Made by a program: the position numbers and the translations under genes. From an uncultured Clostridiaceae bacterium (lineage in GTDB: Bacteria > Bacillota > Clostridia > Clostridiales > Clostridiaceae), in contig CAMJGD010000009.1 of the NCBI GenBank assembly GCA_946405135.1, positions 1 through 64,000 of the forward strand: a stretch of 64,000 bases of DNA, in the 5' to 3' direction. Below, one piece after another: positions 17,733-42,155 of this stretch. The notes below the pieces were generated by a model, which searched no databases, was not told where the DNA came from, and saw only the letters and a program-made list of their open reading frames with translations. The first letter of the stretch is position 1. Every line of letters begins with the position of its first letter.

Positions 17733-18755
17733 CTATCTTTCTCCTAACTTCAAATTAGGTTTTGCATTTAAGTCCAAAGATGACACATTACCTCTCATGT
17801 ACTCAAAATAAGCTGCACTTCCTATCATAGCAGCATTATCTGTACATAGAATTGGTGCTGGAAACAAAACCTTAATACCCATTTCTGCTCCTTTTTCTAT
17901 AAGATTATTTCTAAGAGCAGAATTAGAAGCCACACCACCAGCTATAGCAATCTTATCCACTGACTTCATCTTACAGGTCTTTATAACATTATCTGTAAGT
18001 ACATCTACTACAGCCTTTTGAAAAGAAGCAGCCACATCTGCATTATTTACTTCCTTTGAAGTCATATTCATTTTATTTAGATAATTAAGTACTGCCGACT
18101 TTAGACCACTAAAAGAAAAATCTAAGCATTCTTCATGAAAATTAGCTCTAGGAAACTTTATAGCATTTTCATTTCCTTCTTTTGATAACTTGTCAATTTT
18201 AGGTCCTCCTGGATATCCAAGTCCTATAGCTCTGGCTACTTTATCATAAGCCTCTCCCGCTGCATCATCTCTTGTTTGACCTATAACTTCATAGTTTCCA
18301 TAGTCTTTCATATATACTATAAAAGTATGACCTCCTGACACCACAAGGCATACAAAAGGCGGCTCTAAATCCTTATGCTCTATAAAATTAGCACTAATAT
18401 GACCTTCTATGTGATTTACTCCTATAAGAGGTTTTTTTAACGCATAGGCCAATCCTTTAGCATACTGAAGTCCTACTAACAAAGCACCTACTAGACCTGG
18501 CCCATAGGTTACCCCTATAGCATCAATATCCTTTAGCTCTAAATCTGCCTCCTTAAGAGCAGATTCCACCACCCAGTTTATAGCTTCAATATGCTTTCTT
18601 GAAGCTACTTCTGGAACTACTCCTCCAAACTTTTTATGTATATCTATCTGTGAAGAGATAATATTAGACAATACCTCTCTACCATTAACTACCACTGCTG
18701 CAGCAGTTTCATCGCAACTGCTTTCTATAGCAAGTATCTTTATATCCTTGTTCAT
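17733..18755 (-). CDS. tsaD: tRNA N6-threonylcarbamoyladenosine transferase TsaD
   Basis: The 340-residue protein is a full-length TsaD/Kae1/Gcp. It begins with the ASKHA ATPase motif [14 protein letters not shown], has the metal-binding HIEGH near residue 112, the [15 protein letters not shown] segment and the C-terminal CTDNAAMIG. With TsaB, TsaC and TsaE, not encoded here, it transfers threonylcarbamoyl to A37 of tRNAs reading ANN codons. It is essential in most bacteria. The start ATG and length are as expected. Confidence 0.96.
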
Positions 18756-37375: not shown

Positions 37376-38554
37376 ATGATTAAGATAAAAAGCGCCATGA
37401 TGAAATATTTTATATTAATCCCATTATTAATAAACTTTACGCCTAAGTCTGTTTACGCTGTAGAAGTTAATGATGCTACCAAAGAAAATATTCAAAATGA
37501 AATAAACCTCATATTCAATGATAGGTGTTCTATGTTCTTAACTGGAGATTTATCCTCCTTGCCTTATTATTTTGATACTTCCAATAAATTTGGAACATGG
37601 GCTTTAGAACATGAGATAAAAAGAATACGATACCTGCGAGATTGGTCTAATCAAAGAGATATAAAATTTACAAATATAGAATCTGAAACTCAGATAAAAA
37701 AAGTAACCCCTACCTCCAGAGGAATGAGAGTAAGAGCAGATGAATATTATAAATTTCAATATATATATCCTAATGATGCTGAACCCATAATAAACAACTT
37801 TGGCGTAAGTTTAATACATTCCATGGAATTAATAAAAAAAGGAGATAGATGGATCATATATAATGATTGGTATACTGACTGCTTTGAAGATGCATTAAAA
37901 TCCTATTCTGGAGAATTAAATGATAAAGAAACACCTTCTGATAAACCAAAGTATACTTTACCCTGCTGCCCAAAAGAAGAATTTATTCAAAAAGATGTAC
38001 CAAAAGGGCATTATAATAGAGTAAAAGCTGTGGAATATGCGGATAAATATTGTGGAATACCTTGGGCTAGCGGTAATCCTCAAAAGTATAACAAAAAGTA
38101 TAAAAACTTTACAGGTATAGGTGGAAATTGTACTAATTATGTATCTCAATGTTTAGGAGATACAGAAGGCGGTGGATTAAAATTCGATGGTACCTGGTAC
38201 TGTATATACAATAAATATGACGGAGCTTCTGGAAGTTCTGCCTGGGTCAATGCAGATGCTCTTAAAAATTATCTTATATATAGCGGAAGAGGCATGATAA
38301 TAAAAAAAGGTGACTTTAAAGCTGTCACATCACCTACAAATGAGCTTTCCTGCGGCGCTGTTTCCAAACTCCAATTAGGGGATTTAATCTGTTATGCTAA
38401 AGGTTCAGACATTGATCATTTTGCCATAGTAACTGGATTTGACTCTCATGGATATCCACTTATAAATTCCCATACTACAGATAGATATCATGTGCCTTGG
38501 GACCTAGGCTGGGGAGATAAAAATATATCCTTTTATCTAATTCACATGAGATAA
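37376..38554 (+). CDS. Secreted putative amidase (amidase_6 domain)
   Basis: The 392-residue protein has a signal peptide (KYFILIPLLINF, cleavage after SVYA), a variable N-terminal region and a C-terminal amidase_6 domain from about residue 210. The domain has the motif GGNCTNYVSQCL with its likely nucleophile Cys, a later His in DIDHFAIVTGFD, and SHTTDRYHVPW. The family resembles NlpC/P60 folds and may act on cell-wall peptides. The ribosome binding site before the ATG is weak and a stem-loop is adjacent; an alternative ATG lies 21 nt downstream. It is monocistronic and probably extracellular. Confidence 0.85.
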   Translation: MIKIKSAMMKYFILIPLLINFTPKSVYAVEVNDATKENIQNEINLIFNDRCSMFLTGDLSSLPYYFDTSNKFGTWALEHEIKRIRYLRDWSNQRDIKFTNIESETQIKKVTPTSRGMRVRADEYYKFQYIYPNDAEPIINNFGVSLIHSMELIKKGDRWIIYNDWYTDCFEDALKSYSGELNDKETPSDKPKYTLPCCPKEEFIQKDVPKGHYNRVKAVEYADKYCGIPWASGNPQKYNKKYKNFTGIGGNCTNYVSQCLGDTEGGGLKFDGTWYCIYNKYDGASGSSAWVNADALKNYLIYSGRGMIIKKGDFKAVTSPTNELSCGAVSKLQLGDLICYAKGSDIDHFAIVTGFDSHGYPLINSHTTDRYHVPWDLGWGDKNISFYLIHMR

Positions 38555-38588: not shown

Positions 38589-38623
38589 AAATAAAGGATT
38601 GCGAAAATCACAATCCTTTATTT
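38589..38623 (-). terminator. Terminator of osmolyte transporter operon
   Basis: Perfect 13-bp arms (38589-38601 and 38611-38623) enclose a 9-nt loop. On the minus strand a TTTATAAAATTTT stretch follows. It overlaps the stop of the permease gene. Confidence 0.8.
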
Positions 38624-40197
38624 CAATTTTTAATTAAATTCTGCTCTCTTAAAAAATCCTCTGCTACTTTTCTTGGTTCCTGATTTAACTTATCAACTTT
38701 ATAATTTAACTCTCTCATAGTATCTTCATCCAATTTTCCTGCTAATTTGTTTACTATACCCTCTATTTCTGGATACTTTTTTAATGTATCTTTTCTTATT
38801 ACAGGAAATGCATAATAGGGTGGAAAAAAGTTTTTGTCATCCTTAAGAACTTTAAGATCAAAAGCTTTTAATAATCCATCTGTATAAAAGGCATCTGTTA
38901 CTTGAGCTTTATCACTATTTATAGAGCTATATCTCAATCCTCCATCTAAGGCTTTTGTATCTTTAAAATTCATATTATAAGCTTTTTTTAGACCTAAGTA
39001 CCCATCTTCTCTATTTAGAAACTCTATGGTAGAACCAAGTATTAAATCATTACTTACCTTAGCAAGATCTGAAAAATTTTCTAAATTGTATTTTTCAGCT
39101 GTATCCTTCCTTACTGCCAAAGTATATGTATTATTAAATCCTAAAGGTTTTAATAATTCTCCATTATATTCTTGGCTAAAATACCTTTTCACCTTATTAT
39201 AAGCTTCATCTGCATCATTTATAGCAGGTTCTTTCATTATATTTACTAAAGCTGTACCTGTATATTCCACATACATATCTAACTCTTTAGCTCTAAAGGC
39301 AGAAAATGTAACACTAGATCCTCCTAAATTCATTTTTCTTTCTACTTTAATGTCACTATTCTCTTCTATAAGCGTTGCAAGCATATTACCTAGTATTAGC
39401 TGCTCATTATAATTTTTTGATCCTACTACTATTTTCTTCTTATTGCCTGAGAAAACTTTAAACCCGCCTAGAATTAAAGCAATAACTAAAATAACTGCTG
39501 CAAATTTATACACTTTTTTATTTTTTAATGTTTTTCTTGAACTTTTTTTGTTTTTAGATATTCCTCTAGGAGTCACTGCATATTCAATTTTGCTTATAAT
39601 AAAATCCATAAGAAGGGCTAATATACAAGCTGGTATGGCTCCTGCCAAAATCATATAATTATTAACGGTTTGGACTCCTGAAAACACCATATATCCAAGT
39701 CCTCCAGCCCCAACAAAAGCTGCTATAGTCATAAGTCCTACCGCTGTTACCGCAGATATTCTTACTCCAGCCATAATTACTGGCAAAGCTAAAGGTAATT
39801 CTACCATAACAAGCATCTCTCTTCTTGTCATACCCATAGCTTTAGCTGCTTCTTTCATATCACTATTTATATTTTTTATTCCAGTATAAGTATTTTTTAA
39901 TATAGGAAGTAAAGAATACAAAAATACCATAATTACAGCTGGTTTACTGCCTATCCCCAAAACCGGAATTAAAAATCCTAGCAGTGCTAAACTTGGTATA
40001 GCTTGTACTACATTGGCAATTCCTAATATAGGAGTGGCTAATTTTTCTTTTCTAGTTATTAATATTCCTAATGGCACACCTACTAAAATTGCTAACACCA
40101 CTGAAATCAAAGTAAGTCCAATATGTTCACCTATTAAGGTTAATATTTCCATTCTTCTAGATATAATAAAGTTTATAAACTCTTTTATGCCATTCAT
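38623..40197 (-). CDS. Osmolyte ABC transporter permease fused to substrate-binding protein (OpuB/OpuC-type)
   Basis: The 524-residue protein joins a BPD-type permease (about 1-210, six helices, with the EAA-like motif EAAKAMGMTRREML) to a membrane-tethered binding domain (about 255-524, starting KIVVGSKNYNEQ as in OpuAC/OpuBC-type quaternary-amine binders). A basic linker and a helix at about 230-250 separate them. Separate genes are the usual form in Bacillus OpuB/OpuC; the fusion resembles BusAB-like arrangements. It probably imports glycine betaine, carnitine or choline. It lies 12 nt after the ATPase gene, with GGAGGTG before its ATG. Confidence 0.9.
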   Translation of the reverse strand: MNGIKEFINFIISRRMEILTLIGEHIGLTLISVVLAILVGVPLGILITRKEKLATPILGIANVVQAIPSLALLGFLIPVLGIGSKPAVIMVFLYSLLPILKNTYTGIKNINSDMKEAAKAMGMTRREMLVMVELPLALPVIMAGVRISAVTAVGLMTIAAFVGAGGLGYMVFSGVQTVNNYMILAGAIPACILALLMDFIISKIEYAVTPRGISKNKKSSRKTLKNKKVYKFAAVILVIALILGGFKVFSGNKKKIVVGSKNYNEQLILGNMLATLIEENSDIKVERKMNLGGSSVTFSAFRAKELDMYVEYTGTALVNIMKEPAINDADEAYNKVKRYFSQEYNGELLKPLGFNNTYTLAVRKDTAEKYNLENFSDLAKVSNDLILGSTIEFLNREDGYLGLKKAYNMNFKDTKALDGGLRYSSINSDKAQVTDAFYTDGLLKAFDLKVLKDDKNFFPPYYAFPVIRKDTLKKYPEIEGIVNKLAGKLDEDTMRELNYKVDKLNQEPRKVAEDFLREQNLIKN

Positions 40198-40209
40198 AGA
40201 TTACACCTC

Positions 40210-41322
40210 CTAGTCTATATATTGAGAACTTAATACTGAAATTAATCTACTTTTTGTAACAAGTCCCTTCAATTTATTAGATTCATTTAATACTGGTAAG
40301 TACCCCACAGATGTATCATTCATTTTTGTTAATATATCTACTATAGACTCATTTTCTTTTATATATATAATATCTTTTTCCATTATATCTTTAATTTTCA
40401 GGTTATCATTTGCACCCTTTTTAAGTGCTTTTAAAGTTACAATGCCCTTTAATAAATTTTCTTTATCTACTATGAGCAAACTATCAACTTTTCTTTGTTT
40501 CATTATATTTATAGCTTGAAGTACAGTCCTTCCTTCATTAGTTGTCACAGGGTCTTCAATCATAATATCTGATACTTTTATCAATTCTGGCTTGTTCCAT
40601 ATTCTATTCTTTCCTATAAATTCTTCTACAAATCCTTCTGCAGGATCTTTAAGTATTTTTTCAGGAGTATCAAACTGAAGTATTTCCCCATCTTTCATTA
40701 TGCAAATTCTATCTCCCAATTTAAGCGCTTCATCCATATCATGAGTTACAAATACTATAGTCTTTTTAAGTTCTTGTTGAATAGCAAAAACTTCATCCTG
40801 TAGCTGATTTCTAGTTATTGGATCCAATGCACTAAAAGGTTCATCCATAAGTATTATATCCGGATTAGTAGCAAAAGCCCTTGCAACACCTATTCTTTGC
40901 TGCTGACCTCCACTAAGCTCTTCAGGATATCTATCCATATAATCTTCACCATTCATACCTACCATTTCCATAAGTTCATAGGTTCTCTTTATTATGTCCT
41001 CTTTAGTCCATTTTTTTAATTTAGGAACTAAACCTATATTTTCAGCTACTGTCATGTGAGGAAAAAGTCCTGTTTGCTGTATAACATATCCTATATTTCT
41101 TCTTAACTCTATAGTGTTTTCTTTAGATATGTCTTTACCATCAATTAATATACTTCCTGAACTGGGTAATATTAACTTATTTATCATTTTCAAAGTTGTA
41201 GTTTTTCCACAGCCACTCGGTCCAATAAGTACTACTAATTCTCCCTCATCTATTTTAAAGTTAATACCCTTTATAACAATTTTATTTTTGTAGGATTTAC
41301 TTACATTTACAAATTCAATCAT
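40210..41322 (-). CDS. Osmolyte ABC transporter ATPase with two CBS domains (OpuCA-like)
   Basis: The 370-residue ATPase has Walker A GPSGCGKTT near residue 35, signature ELSGGQQQR, Walker B IILMDEPFSALDP and His in VTHDMDEA. A C-terminal pair of CBS domains lies at about 245-305 and 310-365. CBS domains of this ATPase class bind c-di-AMP in Listeria OpuC. It is first of two genes and pairs with the fused permease-binding protein. A terminator hairpin lies in its leader within 27 nt of the start. Function: import of quaternary amines for osmoprotection. Confidence 0.92.
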   Translation of the reverse strand: MIEFVNVSKSYKNKIVIKGINFKIDEGELVVLIGPSGCGKTTTLKMINKLILPSSGSILIDGKDISKENTIELRRNIGYVIQQTGLFPHMTVAENIGLVPKLKKWTKEDIIKRTYELMEMVGMNGEDYMDRYPEELSGGQQQRIGVARAFATNPDIILMDEPFSALDPITRNQLQDEVFAIQQELKKTIVFVTHDMDEALKLGDRICIMKDGEILQFDTPEKILKDPAEGFVEEFIGKNRIWNKPELIKVSDIMIEDPVTTNEGRTVLQAINIMKQRKVDSLLIVDKENLLKGIVTLKALKKGANDNLKIKDIMEKDIIYIKENESIVDILTKMNDTSVGYLPVLNESNKLKGLVTKSRLISVLSSQYID

Positions 41323-41348
41323 CTCACCACTCCTTTATAAAAAATAAA

Positions 41349-41392
41349 ATCAAACCGACAACTTTATAATATCACAGAGTTGTCGGTTTGAT
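41349..41392 (-). terminator. Terminator in leader of osmolyte transporter operon
   Basis: Perfect 15-bp arms (41349-41363 and 41378-41392) enclose a 14-nt loop and are followed on the minus strand by TTTTATTTTTTAT. The T run ends right before the Shine-Dalgarno of the ATPase gene. Confidence 0.85.
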
Positions 41393-41467
41393 AAATTTAG
41401 TAAACGATTAAATTTGTAAATACTATGTTAATAATACTATTTTTTAATATTCAATATTTATAAAAAT

Positions 41468-41505
41468 AGAGCCTACAAATATTGATTACAATATCTATAG
41501 ACTCT
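41468..41505 (-). terminator. Terminator of BusR-like regulator gene
   Basis: The minus-strand RNA forms a 17-bp stem with three G-U pairs and a 4-nt loop, followed by ATTTTTAT. It lies 24 nt after the regulator stop codon. Confidence 0.8.
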
Positions 41506-41528
41506 ATACACCAATTATGAACATTATA

Positions 41529-42155
41529 TTAACTATATAAAAAATTACATACTTTATCATACACATCTTTATTTCCTATGACTACTATAGTGTCATCTAT
41601 TTGAAATTCATAATCTGGACCTGGTGATACCACTATATCTTTATTTCTTCTATAAGCAATTATGGTAGCACCAGTATTTTTCCAAAATCTTACTTCATTT
41701 ACCTTTTTCCCAATGTATTTGCTTTCTTCTTTAATTTTCACTTCTATAAGCACAAAAGGTGAAATGCTGTTAAATCTCTCCAAAAAATCTGAAATTTTAT
41801 TAAAATTTTCTTCTAACTCTATATCCAACTTCTTTTTTTTCTCTATGATGTCAGCTATATTTTCTCTCACTGTATTTATATACTCATTATTTTTATACCT
41901 TTCAATAAACTTTTCTGCGGCTGAAACAGAAAGCACATTTATTCCACTTCCTAAATTTGCAGAAACCACATCCATACCTTCTAATAAAGCAATAGCTCTT
42001 CTTATGGTCTCTGGTGAAACATTATATATTCCAGCCAAAGTAGATCTACCGCTTATTTTTTCACCTACTTTAAATTCTCCCCTTACTATTTTATTAGCAA
42101 TATCTAATGCTATGTTTCTATATAAAGGTGCAGATACATTTTTCATTATAATCAT
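41529..42155 (-). CDS. BusR-like GntR regulator with RCK_C (TrkA-C) domain
   Basis: The 208-residue protein has an N-terminal GntR winged helix (about 8-75, core STLAGIYNVSPETIRRAIAL), a helical linker at about 90-125 and a C-terminal RCK_C domain (about 130-208, with EVRFWKNTGATIIAYRR and VIGNKDVYDKV). This is the architecture of BusR, the c-di-AMP-responsive repressor of betaine uptake in lactic bacteria and streptococci. It lies just upstream of the CBS-containing osmolyte transporter. The start is ambiguous: GGAGG is 3 nt before the ATG at 42155 and 12 nt before that at 42146. Confidence 0.85.
   Translation of the reverse strand: MIIMKNVSAPLYRNIALDIANKIVRGEFKVGEKISGRSTLAGIYNVSPETIRRAIALLEGMDVVSANLGSGINVLSVSAAEKFIERYKNNEYINTVRENIADIIEKKKKLDIELEENFNKISDFLERFNSISPFVLIEVKIKEESKYIGKKVNEVRFWKNTGATIIAYRRNKDIVVSPGPDYEFQIDDTIVVIGNKDVYDKVCNFLYS

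Follow-up and report, generated by a model that had tools for sequence, protein, structure and literature searches.

Genes at the opu locus

The locus described here lies within a window of 64,000 nucleotides (the whole stretch of DNA that was analysed) of a Clostridium and comprises three genes on the minus strand, namely a busR-like regulator gene (41529–42155), a gene for an opuCA-like ATPase (40210–41322), and a gene for an opu permease (38623–40197). An earlier first-pass annotation had called these three open reading frames at exactly the positions at which we find them. Further along, at 37376–38554, an Amidase_6 protein with an N-terminus that looks secreted by eye is encoded convergently with the opu operon.

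The regulator (208 amino acids) consists of an N-terminal GntR winged helix-turn-helix domain (residues 11–74), a linker, and a C-terminal TrkA_C/RCK_C domain (residues 136–206), both domains being assigned with Pfam. Its top match in the PDB is BusR of Streptococcus agalactiae (7b5t, E = 1.9e-33, residues 9–203), and a second solved BusR-type chain (7wjg, E = 1.1e-29) aligns with it nearly end to end. This domain order and the full-length alignment with a solved BusR place the protein among the BusR-type regulators, as the first-pass annotation had read from its GntR–RCK_C architecture. In its own 3.69-Mb genome, the window gene is the only full-length match to the regulator; four additional matches are partial, with E values of 8.4e-6 or weaker. 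Most of the DNA-contacting residues whose roles are described for S. agalactiae BusR (PMC8517857) can be recognized in the alignment: R38, R53, G70, and G72 are retained as R37, R52, G69, and G71, K54 is replaced by R53, and K36 by S35, at a position that is variable among relatives.

The ATPase (370 amino acids) carries an ABC_tran domain followed by two CBS stretches (Pfam) and passes the NCBIfam proV model TIGR01186 with 425 bits (cut-off 327). Its CBS pair matches the structure of the Listeria OpuCA CBS domains (5ks7) over 117 residues (E = 8.1e-17). In the permease (524 amino acids), a BPD_transp_1 domain (residues 40–205) is fused with an OpuAC substrate-binding domain (residues 254–518; Pfam). 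A proV-type ATPase with tandem CBS domains, an OpuAC-type binding domain, and a permease together make up an OpuC-type importer, and the earlier description of the regulator as adjoining a CBS-containing OpuC-type importer with a fused binding protein is thus borne out by the Pfam, TIGR01186, and 5ks7 matches. A genome search with the ATPase matched the window gene alone across the CBS part, the six other matches ending at residue 252 or earlier.

Between busR and the opu genes, an intrinsic terminator of busR is found on the minus strand at 41466–41507 (a 19-pair stem, then TTTTATAAAT). It is the sole call of the terminator scan, compared with 0.1 in shuffles. A terminator dedicated to busR makes it probable that opu forms a transcription unit of its own.

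A predicted operator upstream of opuCA

A perfect 15-bp inverted repeat is present at 41349–41392, with arms at 41349–41363 and 41378–41392 (15/15 arm positions paired) and a loop of 14 nt. The BusR motif GAC-N22-GTC is found in four experimentally determined sites, and BusR no longer binds when the half-sites are shifted by +5 or −10 bp (PMC8517857). The palindrome contains this published motif exactly, at 41357–41384; judged by sequence match only, the importer promoter thus carries the bipartite operator of BusR. The second GAC-N22-GTC in the window, at 18278, has 5/15 arm positions paired. Genome-wide, the core ACAAC-N16/17-GTTGT occurs in one place, the predicted operator, versus five for a reversed control pattern. 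The exact core was used here instead of an earlier version allowing up to three mismatches, which gave hundreds of chance places across the genome. No sign of autoregulation emerged: neither ACAAC nor GTTGT is present within 300 nt upstream of busR. Our literature search found no publication on a clostridial BusR operator, a weak negative given that subscription papers were mostly outside its coverage.

Conservation among relatives

The comparison comprised an alignment of 14 homologues and the 80 top-ranking loci out of 423 named ones that encode BusR relatives. An OpuCA homologue (>250 bits) lies near busR in at least 25 of these 80 loci, several of whose contigs end early. The resulting opuCA set holds 29 copies (28 and the window), the relatives' copies all being fetched via the BusR gene. 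Arms spaced by N22–24 occur within 250 nt upstream of opuCA in 24 of the 29 copies, window included, whereas dinucleotide shuffles of these upstream regions average 0.01 such copies and never exceed 1/29. The five copies that miss exact arms (L100, L106, L127, L139, and L149) carry imperfect N23 versions with 11–13 of 14 arm bases. Among the opu operators, the spacing is N22 at 14 sites, N23 at 10, and N24 at one, and the spacing spectrum of all 80 loci has sharp peaks at N22 (16) and N23 (22), all other spacings between N8 and N68 reaching three at most. The arms lie upstream of opuCA whether busR precedes opuCA or opu is reversed (e.g., L122, L135, and L143).

Of 146 genomes from the family, 108 encode BusR and 51 carry the pattern RACAACT-N14-AGTTGTY, which has 73 places in all. 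A BusR gene lies at most 1 kb away from 38 of these places, 35 of which are 3' of the gene; the 35 remaining places are away from busR. The pattern is present in 45/108 genomes with BusR versus 6/38 without a BusR match; as it describes N22 sites and is blind to N23 ones, the 45/108 is an underestimate by design. Two tandem BusR-type sites adjoining busR, as at S. agalactiae busA, were observed in Clostridium intestinale (L085:6723–6785) and in three further genomes (G057, G078, and G084).

The predicted opu promoter and competing readings of the palindrome

A promoter scan and a conserved extended −10 element point to a minus-strand opu promoter within the predicted operator, TTATCA-N17-TATTAT at 41366–41394, with TGa ahead of the second hexamer. 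The −35-like hexamer lies at the upstream edge of the operator and the extended −10 in its center. The hexamers by themselves are at background (10 found versus 8.8 expected), and the extended −10, TGnTAnnnT, is central in 20 of the 25 opu operators at a single offset (18–19 nt from the 3' end), compared with 1/25 on the opposite strand. Because this element has a fixed offset in the loop, the transcript should start in the second arm and would then lack the hairpin.

This bears directly on the question of whether the palindrome is a DNA operator or, instead, a hairpin in the opu leader RNA that serves as an intrinsic terminator or attenuator. Its perfect 15-bp stem, the T-rich stretch that follows on the minus strand, and the arms' staying complementary in relatives would all suit such a hairpin. 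The terminator scan did not call it, its 14-nt loop exceeding the limits of that scan. However, the arms keep their sequence (ACAACTT/AAGTTGT) beyond mere pairing, their spacing is fixed at N22–24, the window yields no Rfam match, and the loop carries the promoter element in most copies, which together make an RNA attenuator unlikely, with roughly the standing of a long shot. The first-pass annotation had looked for the operator elsewhere, in the interval 41393–41467, which starts one base past the palindrome, and had singled out the octamer AATACTAT as a direct repeat there (41419–41440, copies at 41419 and 41433). Both copies are present and sit upstream of opuCA, but they have no special status: the window holds 24 copies (shuffle mean 11.5, sd 3.5), the opuCA upstream regions of 28/28 relatives lack the octamer, and it does not match the published GAC-N22-GTC. 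By its copy number in the window and its absence from relatives, the repeat is rejected as operator, with hardly any probability left to it, and we place it outside the operator. The palindrome, on the other hand, fits much better than the AATACTAT repeats and is likely the BusR operator.

Ligand pocket and proposed mechanism

Of the c-di-AMP pocket residues described for S. agalactiae BusR (PMC8517857), W159, A164, T165, I166, G180, and P181 are retained in the window protein, and I153 is replaced by V. The polar residues N157 and H160 are swapped for R156 and K159, and further swaps affect G154 (N153) and F182 (D181). Across 81 rows (the window protein and 80 relatives), T165, G180, and P181 are invariant, and the A164 position holds A in 67 rows and G in the other 14. 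The N157 position is N in nine rows and the H160 position is H in none. Loss of the polar rim is thus general in these BusR relatives and alone does not exclude c-di-AMP, which is the presumed ligand. The same genome encodes two DAC-domain proteins and a single c-di-AMP riboswitch. This riboswitch (G000:C4:35803–35930, in L157) lies ahead of a minus-strand gene whose product resembles a LysM cell-wall protein by eye.

A regulator that binds the opu promoter might nonetheless sense a different signal, such as ionic strength, K+, or another ligand. The R and K in place of N157 and H160 would be in keeping with this, as would the dependence of lactococcal BusR binding on ionic strength as well (PMC10243994). 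Set against it are the retained adenine-contacting residues A164, T165, and I166 together with G180 and P181, and the presence of DAC-domain proteins and a c-di-AMP riboswitch in the genome. We regard such a different signal as rather improbable, though deserving of more weight than the RNA hairpin.

With good confidence, we favor the reading in which the 208-residue protein is a c-di-AMP-responsive BusR-type repressor that is dedicated to the adjacent opu importer and competes with RNA polymerase at its promoter. Support at the level of sequence comes from the domain architecture, the operator match, the promoter overlap, the conservation, and the single genomic site; the tetramer, the repression, c-di-AMP binding by either protein, and the substrate are what we infer. 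The regulator would act as a tetramer, as suggested by the conserved arm spacing, with a coiled-coil ruler setting two winged-helix units on the arms of GAC-N22-GTC. Since the upstream edge of the palindrome carries the −35 and its center the −10, the repressor would shut out RNA polymerase when bound at 41349–41392, and vice versa. High c-di-AMP (at high turgor or K+) would favor operator binding and keep opu off, and a fall in c-di-AMP under hyperosmotic stress would relieve the repression of opu. The CBS pair of the ATPase, which by homology to 5ks7 may bind c-di-AMP too, could then serve as a second, fast, and post-translational brake.

Relation to known systems

Binding of c-di-AMP by BusR and repression of betaine import are established in Lactococcus lactis and S. 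agalactiae, and BusR homologues in Clostridium have already been noted (PMC6108528, PMC5919688). Lactic bacteria combine BusR repression with direct control of the transporter (reviewed in PMC10243994), and the principle of a two-level c-di-AMP limit on osmolyte import is thus already established there. For other Firmicutes, it is likewise established that OpuCA binds c-di-AMP through its CBS domains (PMC10243994, PMC6108528).

The window locus resembles the BusR–busA systems of S. agalactiae and L. lactis in the domain order and full-length similarity of the regulator and in the predicted GAC-N22-GTC operator. The likeness extends to the promoter, as one of the two S. agalactiae BusR sites overlaps −35, −10, and +1 (PMC5919688, PMC8517857). 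The importer, however, is of the OpuC type here, with CBS domains on its ATPase, and the window locus has one operator, whereas S. agalactiae has two. Moreover, the arms are extended to 15 bp, relatives use N22, N23, or N24, and N157 and H160 of the pocket are replaced. Compared with the c-di-AMP-inhibited OpuC importers of Listeria, Staphylococcus, and Enterococcus, the window ATPase is similar in its CBS pair, matching that of Listeria OpuCA, but permease and binding protein form one chain here.

What is added here is the predicted operator with its promoter-embedded layout and the N22–24 spacing in clostridia. A guess about a regulator beside a transporter is thereby narrowed to one testable 44-bp predicted operator, the spacing offers a putative operator rule that can be used to find the targets of clostridial BusR proteins, and the locus would provide an example of repressor and polymerase sites built into one another. 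Among clostridia, the BusR of Clostridioides difficile reportedly takes part in c-di-AMP-controlled osmotolerance (Oberkampf et al., 2022).

BusR-type sites beyond opu

The window protein belongs to a fully supported branch (100/100) of 21 rows, 12 of which adjoin a gene with an alanine-dehydrogenase fold and four of which, window included, adjoin opu. The former gene we take to be CEO-like, after its resemblance to carboxyethyl-ornithine synthase. BLAST places it in 13 named loci, seven of which also have a lysine 2,3-aminomutase homologue; the one homologue examined passes TIGR03820 (lys_2_3_AblA) with 635 bits (cut-off 525). Arms at N23 lie upstream of the CEO-like gene in 8/13 loci. The kamA/CEO promoters had been scanned automatically for palindromes, but that scan missed these N23 sites, which the half-site spectrum revealed. 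In the window's own genome, a search for the CEO-like gene (run without a positive control) gave no match.

In Clostridium tetanomorphum (L084:2504–6636), and likewise in L079–L083 and L098, a close BusR homologue follows the CEO-like gene, accompanied by lysine 2,3-aminomutase and an uncharacterised gene in divergent orientation. In L079–L084, N23 BusR-type arms occur in the divergent promoter.

The CEO-like and lysine 2,3-aminomutase loci are possibly a c-di-AMP-controlled solute pathway. In its broadest form, the idea would be that the ruler operator of clostridial BusR proteins is relaxed (N22–N24) and fused to an extended −10 promoter, and that in the sister branch of the window protein the same arms govern a cluster in which lysine 2,3-aminomutase is joined by an alanine-dehydrogenase/opine-synthase-like enzyme making an unrecognised compatible solute. 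We put this forward tentatively, as a speculation with perhaps a modest chance of being right; if true, c-di-AMP would switch solute synthesis in addition to import.

As a comparative prediction, the BusR regulon may reach other genes beyond opu as well. In L101, L109, L114, L142, and L145, busR and a DapB-like dehydrogenase gene diverge from an intergenic region that holds an N23 site (Pfam assignment in L101 and L142). In Romboutsia (L131:6706–8316 and L144:6745–8375), a BusR-type site lies upstream of a BCCT-type betaine transporter gene (Pfam assignment in L131), and in Clostridium acetireducens (L107:3962–5478), a gene for an amino acid permease is preceded by an N23 BusR-type site.
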